Source: a virus. Taken from it: a stretch of 64,000 nt of DNA. Made by a program: the position numbers and the translations under genes. Below the pieces are notes generated by a model, which was not told the origin of the DNA, ran no database searches, and was given only the letters and a program-made list of their open reading frames with translations. Of this stretch, positions 4,195 through 35,242 are shown piece after piece (the stretch's first letter is position 1; every line of letters starts with the position of its first letter). The stretch spans positions 1 to 64,000 of IMG/VR virus record IMGVR_UViG_3300027976_000006; one strand, given 5' to 3'.

Positions 4195-4488
4195 TTAGTC
4201 TTTAAACGCTACAAACCTATTGCGTACAAACAATAGGTTTGCAAAGAATCCACAAAAGGCTAAAACCAAGTAATCAGAATACATAGGTTCTTTTAGCTGC
4301 TCTAAAGGATTAATTAAAAAAGAAATTCCCAAAGAGAACCAAAAGCTGCTGCACTCATGGCAGAGCATAGCCGCTCTGATATAAGGAATTCTGGCTACTA
4401 AGTTGCGAGCCGGCGCTGACACATCTGTGTCGGTCCAAGCGTACGTAACACCTAGGCATACAGTTAGATAAATTATAAATAGTGTCAT
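4195..4488 (-). CDS. Small membrane protein, DUF1360-like
   Basis: 97 residues with an N-terminal membrane segment (MTLFIIYLTVCLGVTYAW) and two more hydrophobic stretches after residue 45. The central LCHECSSFWFSLGISFL resembles the Cys-x2-Cys plus aromatic motif of DUF1360 proteins, and a second protein of this type is encoded at 25672-26004 (SCPFCLSVWVSL). The start overlaps the stop of the upstream reverse-strand gene by 4 nt. The function of the family is unknown. Confidence 0.55.
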   Translation of the reverse strand: MTLFIIYLTVCLGVTYAWTDTDVSAPARNLVARIPYIRAAMLCHECSSFWFSLGISFLINPLEQLKEPMYSDYLVLAFCGFFANLLFVRNRFVAFKD

Positions 4489-4895
4489 AAAAAGTATACC
4501 GTCAATTCGTTATTCTCTTTTACGACAGAAAATCCTCTAAACATTTTACCCATCAAACTTTCTTGAAAAGTCTTCCAAGATTCTGCACTGGCCCCCACTT
4601 TAAATGTTTTACCCGAAATATTGTTTTCGGCCCTCTTTAATTTTAGAAGATCCATCTCTGTCGCTATTTCTTTTGTGTGGTACTTAGTCAACAACAAAGG
4701 ATCAACAACGGATTGATCGGCAAAAAACTTGCCTACCCTACCTCGGCAAGAGCAGTTAGGGTTTAACTTAAGGCTGGTCAAGTCCGCCAATAGGCTTGGG
4801 AACTCGTCTTTCATTTTTTTAAACTTGTCTTCGTCTCTTATGATTATGCTTATAAGATCCGGAAGAACCGACTGATCATAAACTATGTCGCTCAT
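4485..4895 (-). CDS. Hypothetical protein, first gene of a two-gene reverse operon
   Basis: 136 residues, soluble, no family recognised. A clear SD (AAAGGGT) lies just upstream on the reverse strand. It holds a CSC pair at about residues 48-50 and several Lys-rich helices. It is read away from 5026 with 130 nt between the starts, so the divergent promoters probably lie at 4896-5025. Confidence 0.6.
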   Translation of the reverse strand: MSDIVYDQSVLPDLISIIIRDEDKFKKMKDEFPSLLADLTSLKLNPNCSCRGRVGKFFADQSVVDPLLLTKYHTKEIATEMDLLKLKRAENNISGKTFKVGASAESWKTFQESLMGKMFRGFSVVKENNELTVYFL

Positions 4896-8062: not shown

Positions 8063-8368
8063 ATGGCCGAATTAAACAAACTATTGATTTTGGAAGAGTC
8101 TGTGCTGCTAGGCATGATTAACAATCCAAACTTCGTAAAAGAATTTCCATTTCTTACTGGAGCTGAAGGCGTCATCAAGGCTAAGGCAACTGGATGCGGT
8201 CGTTGTAACCAGAACGCAGGAAGACGCATTCAAGCACTTAATGGGATTAAACAATCAATCATTTCTATGAGCGTAGAGCAGAAGCAAAAGCTTAAACAAA
8301 TGGTAAATTCTGAAAAAGTCCGTGTTCTTATATCTGCCAATGGTAAGGTTACTGCACATACTTTCTAA
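8063..8368 (+). CDS. Hypothetical protein with Cys-x2-Cys
   Basis: 101 residues; helical N-terminus, then ATGCGRCNQNAGRR with a CGRC pair near residue 46 that could bind zinc, then a helical segment and a short basic strand end. It is the last gene of this run: the first copy of the repeated leader box begins just after its stop. No family recognised. Confidence 0.55.
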   Translation: MAELNKLLILEESVLLGMINNPNFVKEFPFLTGAEGVIKAKATGCGRCNQNAGRRIQALNGIKQSIISMSVEQKQKLKQMVNSEKVRVLISANGKVTAHTF

Positions 8369-8472
8369 ACCTAAATAATAGGCAAATCCGTGTCATTATT
8401 ATATAGAGGGAAACCTTAACTAATGTGTGTTAAGGTTGATCCTTTGTTTCTTTGTTTCTATGGGAGATACAT
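8367..8472 (+). promoter_or_regulatory. Leader box copy 1 with 9-bp hairpin
   Basis: Holds the conserved block CCTAAATAATAGGCAAATCC followed by TGTCATTATTATATAGAGGG, then a hairpin AACCTTAAC (8412-8420) with GTTAAGGTT (8429-8437), then a pyrimidine-rich stretch and GTTTCTATGGGAGATA before the start codon at 8473. The same order recurs before 9657 and 10189. It is probably promoter plus 5' leader. Confidence 0.7.
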
Positions 8473-8784
8473 ATGTTCGATAGAATGATTATGGATTACA
8501 ATACTGGTTTGACCGAGAGCATCTTGGTTAGGATCAACAAGGAATTCTACGTAGGCCTAAACGGCCTACGTCAGCTCATGGGCGGGGGTAGCATGATTAC
8601 CCCAAAACTCTTGGGCCAGGTGCTAGGGTCCACCTACGGCATCTCCAGGGATCCAGCTGCCTTCTGGCACGTGTACTCGCAGTATATCGTCCAGGAAGCG
8701 GGGGATACTCCAATTTCCAAAACACAATTGGAAAGAGACCGGAAAAAGTTTATAGCGGCATTCGTCTCTTACCTACAATACTAA
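8473..8784 (+). CDS. Small protein, cassette 1
   Basis: 103 residues from ATG 8473, chosen because GGGAGA lies 6-10 nt upstream and the repeated leader ends here. Helical, with a Met/Gly turn (LMGGGSMITPKLLGQVLG). A strong intrinsic terminator follows. No family recognised. It forms a single-gene transcription unit with its own leader and terminator. Confidence 0.65.
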   Translation: MFDRMIMDYNTGLTESILVRINKEFYVGLNGLRQLMGGGSMITPKLLGQVLGSTYGISRDPAAFWHVYSQYIVQEAGDTPISKTQLERDRKKFIAAFVSYLQY

Positions 8785-8791
8785 ACATAAT

Positions 8792-8828
8792 CCCACCAAT
8801 ACCCTCGGGTGTTGGTGGGCTTTTTTTT
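8792..8828 (+). terminator. Intrinsic terminator after cassette 1
   Basis: CCCACCAATACCC (8792-8804) pairs with GGGTGTTGGTGGG (8807-8819), followed by eight T. Confidence 0.9.
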
Positions 8829-8900
8829 AGCTATTAGGCGTTGGCTGGGTATTTTGGGCATTTTTGGGCAAAAGCGGAAGAAGGGTCAATCCCCGATAGG

Positions 8901-9242
8901 ATGGCACAGCACATCTCGCCGACTGGTAGTTGGGTAAGCGGCACGGGTCGCTTCTCAGTAACAATAAACCCACAAACTGCAGTGGTGTCGATCGACATAA
9001 ACCGCAAGGGCTACGGCCCAGTGGTTTATGTTGAAGGAAACCTCGGGGCTATGCCCCGAGTTAAGTTAATTGGCAAATGGAAGATTCGACATCTGCAGGC
9101 AGCTAAAGCTTTGTTAGACGAACTTTTCGGGGTCGCAGGTGCTGATATTCTGTACAAGGAAGTAGAAAAATCGGATTATTTCCCGCGGGAAGAGGCTCAC
9201 CCCACCTCCCGCTTTTTAAACCCCCCAATCTACAAGGCGTAA
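8901..9242 (+). CDS. Hypothetical protein between cassettes
   Basis: 113 residues from ATG 8901. The frame is open upstream to a TTG at 8841 (133 residues), but neither start has a well-placed SD. GAAGAAGGG lies about 16 nt before 8901. The protein is beta-rich (FSVTINPQTAVVSIDINRKGYGPVVYVEG) then helical (HLQAAKALLDELF). No family recognised. Confidence 0.5.
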   Translation: MAQHISPTGSWVSGTGRFSVTINPQTAVVSIDINRKGYGPVVYVEGNLGAMPRVKLIGKWKIRHLQAAKALLDELFGVAGADILYKEVEKSDYFPREEAHPTSRFLNPPIYKA

Positions 9243-9259
9243 GTGCGTCATAATAGAAT

Positions 9260-9380
9260 GATAGACATACCTGTTAGGGGTAGTTTGTAAGGCAAACGAA
9301 AGATCTCTGCAGGGGTCTGGATACTTACAAACTACACTAACTCAAATCAATGAGTTAGTTAGCGTCCCTGTATGTCTATC
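9260..9380 (+). ncRNA. Candidate small structured RNA, three-way junction
   Basis: The outer stem GATAGACATAC (9260-9270) pairs perfectly with GTATGTCTATC (9370-9380). Inside are a 12-bp stem (9280-9291 with 9324-9335), carrying a 5-bp inner stem (9301-9305 with 9314-9318), and a 9-bp stem (9336-9344 with 9351-9359) with a 6-nt loop. A CATAAT hexamer at 9249-9254 is placed like a -10 box, and a strong terminator follows 15 nt downstream. Together these suggest an independently transcribed RNA of about 170 nt. No match to a known RNA class was recognised. It could bind the CsrA encoded at 10773, but that is only an idea. Confidence 0.65.
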
Positions 9381-9395
9381 TCTCAGCAGACTTCC

Positions 9396-9436
9396 AAACC
9401 CAGCTGCCCTTCGGGGTAGTTGGGTTTATTTTTTTT
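9396..9436 (+). terminator. Intrinsic terminator with TTCG loop
   Basis: AACCCAGCTGCCC, TTCG loop, GGGTAGTTGGGTT, then TATTTTTTTT. The same sequence occurs at 10028-10068. Confidence 0.92.
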
Positions 9437-9500
9437 AGGTATTGTCATACCTAAATAATGGGCAAATCCGTGTCATTATTATATAGAGGGAAACCTTAAC
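9396..9500 (+). repeat. Direct repeat: terminator plus leader box (copy A)
   Basis: About 105 nt almost identical to 10028-10132 (a few substitutions and one indel), 632 bp apart. It covers the terminator, a small palindrome TAGGTAT-TGTC-ATACCTA and the leader box. Only the box part is shared with 8369-8420. Confidence 0.9.
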
Positions 9501-9656
9501 TATAGCAGAGGACACCCCCTTGGGTGTAATGCACTGTGGCTTCTTAGCCACACCGGTTCCAAGTCCGGGCATTTGATTCAGCTACCTATTTTTAGTTCAT
9601 TGTGAACTTTAGGGTAGCTGTAATTGTTTTATGGTTTCTACGAAGGAGATTGTATT
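9437..9656 (+). promoter_or_regulatory. Leader box copy 2 with inserted stem-loops
   Basis: The conserved box (about 9450-9500) is followed by structure that copies 1 and 3 lack. ACACCC-CCTT-GGGTGT (9512-9527). A three-way fold has an outer AATGC/GCATT stem (9528-9532 with 9569-9573) that encloses TGTGGCT/AGCCACA (9535-9552) and CCGG/CCGG (9553-9568). AGCTACC/GGTAGCT (9580-9619) encloses AGTTCA-TTG-TGAACT. The end (GGTTTCTACGAAGGAG) resembles the other leaders. Confidence 0.6.
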
Positions 9657-10022
9657 ATGTTGAGTAAAATGTTGGCTTCTGTTAAAAACTGCCGCGCCGA
9701 GCAAAAAGAATTTCAACGAGCTAGGTACGCTCGAGTTGCGGAGCGACTGAATGCGCTGGGGGATGGACTTCTCCAGTTTGAGGTAAAGGGGTGCGCTGGG
9801 CTTGACGACCCACGACATTGGGTTGAGGTCGAGTTGCCCCGCGGGGGGACTAACCACGTCCATGCCTTAAAGCTGTCCTTGACAACTGACCCCGGTTTTC
9901 TCAAGGTGACCGACCATGTCGGGACCAAGTGGGAAAAAATCGACGAAGACGAGCTGATGGGGCACATTGCACTGGATTTCACGGCTCACTTCGAGCCGGA
10001 GGAACCAGAAAAATATTGGTAA
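9657..10022 (+). CDS. Small protein, cassette 2
   Basis: 121 residues from ATG 9657, set by the SD AAGGAG at 9643-9648. Helical basic N-terminus (VKNCRAEQKEFQRARYARVAERLNALGDGLLQF), then beta-rich middle (RHWVEVELPRGGTNHVHALKLSLTT) and an acidic end. Follows the most elaborate leader and is closed by a terminator. No family recognised. Confidence 0.65.
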   Translation: MLSKMLASVKNCRAEQKEFQRARYARVAERLNALGDGLLQFEVKGCAGLDDPRHWVEVELPRGGTNHVHALKLSLTTDPGFLKVTDHVGTKWEKIDEDELMGHIALDFTAHFEPEEPEKYW

Positions 10023-10027
10023 CCAGT

Positions 10028-10068
10028 AAACCCAGCTGCCCTTCGGGGTAGTTGGGTTTATTTTTTTT
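10028..10068 (+). terminator. Intrinsic terminator after cassette 2
   Basis: Same TTCG-loop hairpin and T-tract as at 9396-9436. Confidence 0.92.
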
Positions 10069-10132
10069 AGGTATTGTCATACCTAAATAATAGGTAAATC
10101 GGTGTCATTATTATATAGAGGAAACTTTAACT
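10028..10132 (+). repeat. Direct repeat: terminator plus leader box (copy B)
   Basis: Second copy of the repeat at 9396-9500. Confidence 0.9.
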
Positions 10133-10188
10133 ATTATGTTGGTTAAGGTCGTTCCTCTATTCTTGGTTTCTATGATGGAGATATCGCT
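10069..10188 (+). promoter_or_regulatory. Leader box copy 3 with hairpin
   Basis: Box CCTAAATAATAGGTAAATCG and TGTCATTATTATATAGAGG, then an ACTTTAAC/GTTAAGGT hairpin, then GGTTTCTATGATGGAGATAT before the ATG at 10189. Sequence order and spacing match copy 1. Confidence 0.7.
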
Positions 10189-10404
10189 ATGAGTTTTGCA
10201 AAAAATGAGCGGGTAAAAGACCCGTTCTACGGAGAATTGTCTGCCGAAGAGGCGGAACTCCTGCGGGTGCCCCACGGTACCACTGCCACCGCAGTAACAA
10301 AACTTAGAGAGATTCTAAGAATCTCTCGGCTGATCTGCACATCGGTGGCGGTGGTGTCGGCAGTGGTAATCGCAATGACTGTTGCGATTGCAATTATTTT
10401 TTAA
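10189..10404 (+). CDS. Small tail-anchored membrane protein, cassette 3
   Basis: 71 residues with SD GGAGAT. The soluble N-terminus is charged; the last 26 residues (ICTSVAVVSAVVIAMTVAIA) form one membrane helix with almost no tail after it, so it is probably C-terminally anchored with the N-terminus in the cytoplasm. The function is unknown; it could be an inner-membrane host-takeover protein. Confidence 0.65.
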   Translation: MSFAKNERVKDPFYGELSAEEAELLRVPHGTTATAVTKLREILRISRLICTSVAVVSAVVIAMTVAIAIIF

Positions 10405-10473: not shown

Positions 10474-10779
10474 ATGGTGCAGATCGTGATTGAAAAGAGG
10501 GCGGTCGTGACGAAGACAATGTTCAGTTGGGCGGATGAAGATAATCTGCTTCACCTGCAGGACGGCATATTAAAAATCCTTACCCGAAAGGGGAAGGAAC
10601 TGAAAAAGGAAAGTTCGGGGATTCCAGCCGGATTTCAGCTGGATAGTCTCGACCCTGCCGGTGTGGGCGTGATGGAGTGCGCATCAGATGCGTATACACC
10701 TGAGCAATTGGTAAAACTGTGGCCGAGAACAGTTGATCCGGACATCTGCTATTTTTATGAGGGGGACAAATCGTGTTAA
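10474..10779 (+). CDS. Hypothetical protein upstream of csrA
   Basis: 101 residues, start ATG with CGGAG upstream. Mixed alpha/beta, with a C-terminal segment ICYFYEGDKSC. It overlaps the GTG start of the csrA homologue by 7 nt, so the two are coupled. No family recognised. Confidence 0.6.
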   Translation: MVQIVIEKRAVVTKTMFSWADEDNLLHLQDGILKILTRKGKELKKESSGIPAGFQLDSLDPAGVGVMECASDAYTPEQLVKLWPRTVDPDICYFYEGDKSC

Positions 10780-10961
10780 TACTAACCCGAAAAACCGGCG
10801 AAACCTTAGCAATAAGGTTCGATGGCAAAGAAGTGGAGGTGCACATTCTAAGCACCCACACTGGTCGAGTTTCTTTGGGGTTTATCGCCCCAAAGGAAAT
10901 CACAATCGCGAGGGGCAGGATTAAAAATCCTGCCAGTATGGCGGGGGGAGTAATTGGGTAA
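10773..10961 (+). CDS. csrA: CsrA/RsmA-family RNA-binding regulator
   Basis: 62 residues, GTG start with SD GAGGGGG. Reads as a full CsrA: MLILTRKTGETLAIR at the N-terminus (Leu4 and the GETL turn kept), a GRVSLGFIAPKEITIARGRI end with the APKE turn and the Arg equivalent to E. coli Arg44 that contacts the GGA of target RNAs. CsrA dimers bind GGA-containing hairpins and usually block ribosome binding or change RNA stability. A phage copy would reprogramme host or phage mRNAs. Structured RNAs lie on both sides, including a hairpin that hides the ribosome site of the gene at 11371. Confidence 0.9.
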   Translation: MLILTRKTGETLAIRFDGKEVEVHILSTHTGRVSLGFIAPKEITIARGRIKNPASMAGGVIG

Positions 10962-10968
10962 CCAATGG

Positions 10969-11030
10969 TCGCAGTATGCGATTTGTTTTTTGATGCTGTA
11001 AAAGCACCAATAACAAATCACATACTGCGA
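10969..11030 (+). promoter_or_regulatory. Long 19-bp hairpin downstream of csrA
   Basis: TCGCAGTATGCGATTTGTT (10969-10987) pairs with 11012-11030 with one mismatch. The loop holds a small TGCT/AGCA stem. There is no T-tract, so it is not a simple terminator. It may be an RNase processing site, a CsrA-binding structure or an operator palindrome. Confidence 0.6.
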
Positions 11031-11040
11031 TCTTCCTTCT

Positions 11041-11066
11041 TATTACTATATTGTAATAAGGAGGTT
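11041..11066 (+). promoter_or_regulatory. Small hairpin with GGAGG on its 3' side
   Basis: TTATTAC-TATATT-GTAATAA followed at once by GGAGG. The GGAGG is not linked to a plausible start nearby except a short frame, so its role is unclear. Confidence 0.35.
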
Positions 11067-11097
11067 TTTCTTAGCTATTGGACAACGAGGGGTAAAA

Positions 11098-33890: not shown

Positions 33891-33966
33891 TGTTAATATA
33901 GGTAAGAGTTACAAGGTAACTTGCCCCTAGGGGCAAGTTACCATATTCTACTATCTTCGATAGTAT
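33891..33966 (+). repeat. 76-bp inverted repeat, left copy
   Basis: Reverse complement of 35167-35242 with one mismatch. Contains a 28-bp palindrome (33915-33942; GGTAACTTGCCCCT and its complement) and a 7-bp stem (33949-33965; TACTATC-TTC-GATAGTA). Confidence 0.95.
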
Positions 33967-35166: not shown

Positions 35167-35242
35167 ATACTATCGAAGATAGTAGAATATGGTAACTTGC
35201 CCCTAGGGGCAAGTTACCATGTAACTCTTACCTATATTAACA
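35167..35242 (-). repeat. 76-bp inverted repeat, right copy
   Basis: Inverted partner of 33891-33966. Its palindrome is 32 bp (35189-35220), the single mismatch of the left copy being absent. It lies 13 nt before the methyltransferase start, so it also serves as part of that gene's leader. Confidence 0.95.

Follow-up and report, generated by a model that had tools for sequence, protein, structure and literature searches.

Phage T4 encodes two small RNAs, RNAC and RNAD, which are classed as late RNAs and whose function is yet unknown (PMC9697503). Noncoding RNAs are also transcribed by phage K (PMC9241854), and two larger RNAs of phages, GOLLD and ROOL, likewise lack a known function (PMC12286853). 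The candidate RNA described here is like RNAC and RNAD in being small, noncoding and without known function (a functional resemblance only), but unlike these late RNAs it has a locus-specific motif and lies in an accessory gene cluster. With the phage K RNAs, GOLLD and ROOL it shares the status of a phage-encoded noncoding RNA without an assigned function, although GOLLD and ROOL are much larger and none of these RNAs shows an Rfam match to it. In packaging RNAs of the phi29 type, the body is branched and is closed by a helix. The candidate RNA is of similar size and has both of these features, but it has no Rfam match and comes from another type of phage.

The window (the 64,000 nt stretch analysed) is part of record IMGVR_UViG_3300027976_000006, which comprises 156,975 bases. 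The record is that of a virus of bacteria, and probably of a distant member of the T4-type phages, since it encodes a UvsX-like recombinase, helicases, and SbcC/SbcD-like and tail-fibre-like proteins. Its UvsX gave no tblastn match among 50,697 GenBank phage records, and relatives of the phage were found in IMG/VR. Elsewhere in the window are two perfect, spacerless palindromes (nt 33915-33942 and 35189-35220; arms of 14 and 16 bp) that share GGTAACTTGCCCCT/AGGGGCAAGTTACC. The predicted elements of the RNA are as follows.

9260-9380, plus strand: structured RNA body, with P1, P1b, P2, P2b and P3 around a three-way junction
9260-9270/9370-9380, plus strand: P1, 11 bp
9276-9279/9366-9369, plus strand: P1b, 4 bp
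9280-9291/9324-9335, plus strand: P2, 12 bp
9301-9307/9312-9318, plus strand: P2b, 7 bp, loop UGCA
9336-9344/9351-9359, plus strand: P3, 9 bp
9381-9395, plus strand: single-stranded linker UCUCAGCAGACUUCC, 15 nt, unpaired in the MFE and centroid structures
9396-9436, plus strand: intrinsic terminator, with a second, identical copy at 10028-10068

The MFE and the centroid gave the same structure for the RNA body, with P1b, P2 and P3 meeting at the three-way junction that a first-pass annotation had proposed for this 121-nt stretch. Its stem lengths of 11, 12 and 9 bp were also recovered, while the fourth, given as 5 bp, proved to be the 7 bp of P2b. The folding energy is -49.6 kcal/mol (z -7.1 against dinucleotide shuffles, n=200), and no shuffle (0/200) was as stable; for the body together with the terminator (nt 9260-9436) z is -8.4, again with 0/200 shuffles equally stable. 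A composition-corrected scan of the whole 157-kb record in 121-nt windows placed the body fourth of 7,814, ranks 1 to 3 being overlapping windows of a single other element (nt 10921-11080). These figures uphold the annotation's view that the pairing exceeds chance, and its description of the stretch as free of ORFs also holds, as no plus-strand ORF of at least 20 aa lies within nt 9260-9380.

The body is mostly helix, with few unpaired bases and a 9+5-nt internal loop. Because P1, P2 and P3 are perfect, all-Watson-Crick helices, the complementary strand folds well too (z -7.15). Perfect stems and a complement that folds nearly as well are also what would be seen if nt 9260-9380 were inverted repeats acting at the level of DNA, for example as a protein-binding or recombination site. 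We regard this as improbable. A transcription unit is defined here by the motif and terminator together with the lack of an ORF, DNA sites do not usually show a nested three-way layout, and the U-G pairs of P2b, which disappear on the complementary strand, favour an RNA read from the plus strand.

The statement that no known class fits was confirmed with the covariance models of Rfam 15, which found nothing at the gathering score in nt 9260-9380 and, at E=10, only a chance-level match to rnk_pseudo (14.9 bits vs a gathering score of 55). With no credible match for the body, identity with a known ribozyme or riboswitch was rejected. An undescribed class of self-cleaving ribozyme or riboswitch, for which the internal loop could serve as core and the Twister-P5 ribozyme of the next transcription unit would speak, is highly improbable: the body lacks a credible Rfam match even at E=10, no downstream gene lies within the RNA's unit, and the terminator, being identical to a copy behind another gene, is no part of a switch that involves P1. 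The Twister-P5 self-cleaving ribozyme itself (nt 9504-9568, plus strand; RF02684, 38.1 bits vs gathering 37.6) sits upstream of gene 9657-10022, in the 5' leader that follows the 9470 copy of the motif (see below).

Two further candidates were considered and rejected. Type III antitoxin RNAs (ToxI-like) were defined by tandem pseudoknot repeats of 30-50 nt and a ToxN-type toxin gene behind the terminator; the RNA body is single-copy in the genome and without repeats, and gene 9657-10022, which is preceded by a motif and a leader of its own, gave no significant match in Pfam. Sequestration of CsrA was considered because csrA is nearby, but a sponge of the CsrB/RsmY type was defined by many GGA sites in hairpin loops, and nt 9260-9380 contains a single GGA, located in an internal loop. 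The csrA homologue (nt 10773-10961, plus strand; Pfam PF02599, E 5e-14) is syntenic in relatives. Directly after it is a long hairpin with a terminator (nt 10967-11064, plus strand), the strongest fold of the genome, with homologues in L061 (about 9750-9870) and G008. Its sequence and pairing are kept in relatives despite changes, and it probably represents either a small RNA or a 3' element that has been conserved.

Searches for homologues of the RNA were negative. There was no blastn match among GenBank phages, and the exact loop pattern did not occur in IMG/VR. A looser pattern gave 28 matches, which is near the estimated chance number, and the fold was present in none of them; 2 matches in bacterial genomes were also without the fold, and both are open in one frame and encode similar peptides. 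A single-sequence covariance model detected no homologue among the UvsX relatives and syntenic loci, and neighbouring proteins used as bait recovered no relatives. In all, the searched collections, which may omit records very near the window, contained no homologue. A 10-mer, AAGGCAAACG, common to this RNA and that of L073 was judged to be due to chance.

The strong terminator reported downstream of the RNA was found at nt 9396-9436, where a 14-bp stem with a UUCG loop is followed by a T-run. Its own terminator and the lack of a coding sequence are two features of the unit that are expected of a stand-alone phage small RNA. Many bacterial small RNAs end in an intrinsic terminator with a U-run and have an accessible linker. 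The presence of both here would suit a base-pairing regulator directed at phage or host mRNAs, with its seed in the internal loop, the junction or the 15-nt linker; this mode of action is unlikely, however, as no unpaired segment paired with the translation starts of the phage any better than shuffled segments did.

Upstream, the RNA is bordered by a member of a family of promoter-like motifs, which occurs four times in this part of the window.

8370-8412, plus strand: promoter-like motif upstream of gene 8473-8784
9225-9259, plus strand: promoter-like motif, core GCGTCATAATAGAAT at 9245-9259, recognised by weight matrix and invariant columns
9450-9492, plus strand: promoter-like motif upstream of the Twister-P5 leader and gene 9657-10022
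10082-10124, plus strand: promoter-like motif upstream of gene 10189-10404

Three near-identical copies of GTGTCATTATTATATAGAGGGAA, at 8390, 9470 and 10102, each lie upstream of a short gene. Relatives also carry the motif at their syntenic loci, and in the records searched no exact or one-mismatch match lay elsewhere. A 42-bp weight matrix trained on the relatives' copies only, and applied to both strands of the 157-kb genome, returned as its four best sites 8390, 9470, 10102 and then 9245. The site at 9245 is much weaker than its sister copies (1.9 vs 50.6-51.8; next site -1.4) and retains the columns that are invariant in an alignment of 15 copies. Its last base, T9259, is one base ahead of P1. 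The predicted transcripts of several sister copies likewise open with a stem whose first base directly follows the motif (at 8405 and 10117 within the window, and as GAGAGC..GCUCUU in relatives), while those of others do not, and the spacing of P1 at 9260 follows the same relation. Transcription from 9260 is likely, judging from the sequence, because the motif ends at P1 as it does at the stems of several sister copies. The -10-like CATAAT that had been noted before the RNA is present (nt 9249-9254) and is covered by this phage-specific motif, but a sigma-70 scan called no promoter around it on the plus strand. The RNA would then have a promoter-like, lineage-specific motif confined to the locus, with no recognisable sigma-70 site. 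CTAAATA was also considered as a T4-like late promoter of the phage, and was dropped as strand bias was absent.

The main rival to a stand-alone gene is that the RNA forms part of the mRNA of gene 8841-9242, as a 3'UTR element that protects or regulates it and that may give rise, by processing, to a 3'-derived small RNA. It could belong to this mRNA because P1 begins only 17 nt past the stop codon; moreover, the terminator after the RNA is the sole one between the gene and the next motif, and the small pseudoknots of relatives likewise occur between stop codons and terminators. Set against this is the motif of the locus promoter family, which separates P1 from the stop codon and runs up to P1, and we consider the 3'UTR origin rather unlikely.

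We therefore think it probable that nt 9260 to about 9434 represent a free-standing phage RNA gene of ~175 nt. Counted in its favour were the fold, the absence of an ORF, the terminator, the motif site, the stems at sister copies and the contents of the relatives' slot (see below); counted against it were the single sequence, the weak 9245 site, the folding of the complementary strand and the nearness of gene 8841-9242. The new stand-alone small RNA of the first-pass annotation is thus sustained as to fold, lack of an ORF and of an Rfam match, terminator and motif, while its transcription is something we infer. As a stand-alone gene it would be transcribed from a start at or beside G9260, from a promoter-like motif whose use would be limited to this accessory locus, and the transcript would end at the terminator, nt 9396-9436. 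Closure of the 5' end into P1 should slow 5'-end-dependent decay and so would be expected to stabilise it. The folded RNA may act through its shape, binding a protein of the host or the phage, or serving as its decoy, while the host is being taken over; shape is favoured over a base-pairing seed because the RNA is mostly helix and has no preferred phage mRNA target. Protein binding is a somewhat doubtful proposal, held with low confidence, and the possible functions that we infer include protein decoy, regulator and a part in host takeover.

The order of elements in the window is cassette-like (gene 8473, gene 8841, the RNA, the Twister-P5 leader with gene 9657, gene 10189), and the locus looks like a cassette because a 97-bp block of terminator and motif is duplicated in the window (96%). 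On either side, the flanking genes keep their synteny in G003, G005, G006, G008 and G010. In these relatives nt 8369-10188 is replaced by other sequence, and the window's RNA is absent. The slot of G006/G005, G008 and L066 contains ORF-less stretches of roughly 300 nt, flanked by copies of an H-type pseudoknot motif of ~30 nt, and L073-L075 have a longer folded stretch in this position.

L061 8604-8930; L066 5327-5700; G008 4290-4520 (L062, minus strand): ORF-less stretches of ~300 nt between two pseudoknot motifs
L061 7394, 8625, 8912; L066 4497, 5345: pseudoknot motif near gene ends
L062 8221, 8409, 8708, 9653, minus strand: pseudoknot motif near gene ends
L073 about 168-1010, same place in L074 and L075: folded stretch of ~850 nt

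The pseudoknot motif was seen at this locus only, in 4 of 11 records, with the consensus YGUC CURAGC(AA) GACR UUAAAAGGCUY and second-helix variants AAGC/GCUU, GAGCC/GGCUC and GAC/GUC. The ~300-nt stretches are little alike between relatives, except for a common 3' part in G006 and G008. The stretch of L073-L075 is ORF-poor, strongly folded and located directly past the motif. Between L073 and L074 all of the differing pairs (14/14) still pair, a count that leans towards structure because the structure was derived from those same two sequences. It has no Rfam match and is a candidate large phage RNA. The window's RNA is unrelated to the relatives' slot stretches, both by sequence and by covariance model. 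At L061 8352-8410, and in the same place in L062 and L066, a second copy of the motif is followed by a terminator-like hairpin; pairing is possible between the predicted transcript start, GAGGGC, and the hairpin's 5' arm, CCCUC, an arrangement that looks like an attenuator.

Since relatives hold different ORF-less or folded stretches in it, the slot resembles a cassette locus whose content varies and in which noncoding RNA recurs. Tentatively, the locus between genes 8063-8368 and 10189-10404 may be a site for noncoding-RNA cassettes acting in host takeover or counter-defence, where a locus-only promoter would drive exchangeable structured RNAs of ~175 nt (the RNA described here), ~300 nt (pseudoknot-bracketed, in three relatives) and ~850 nt (in others). 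Small RNAs without a known function occur in large phages, and RNAC and RNAD of T4 are still unexplained. With its recognisable motif and terminator, a compact RNA gene such as this candidate offers a defined place to seek phage RNAs that act on the host. Related phages fill the slot of this RNA with other candidate structured RNAs, and the promoter-like motif provides a means to find further phage RNAs.
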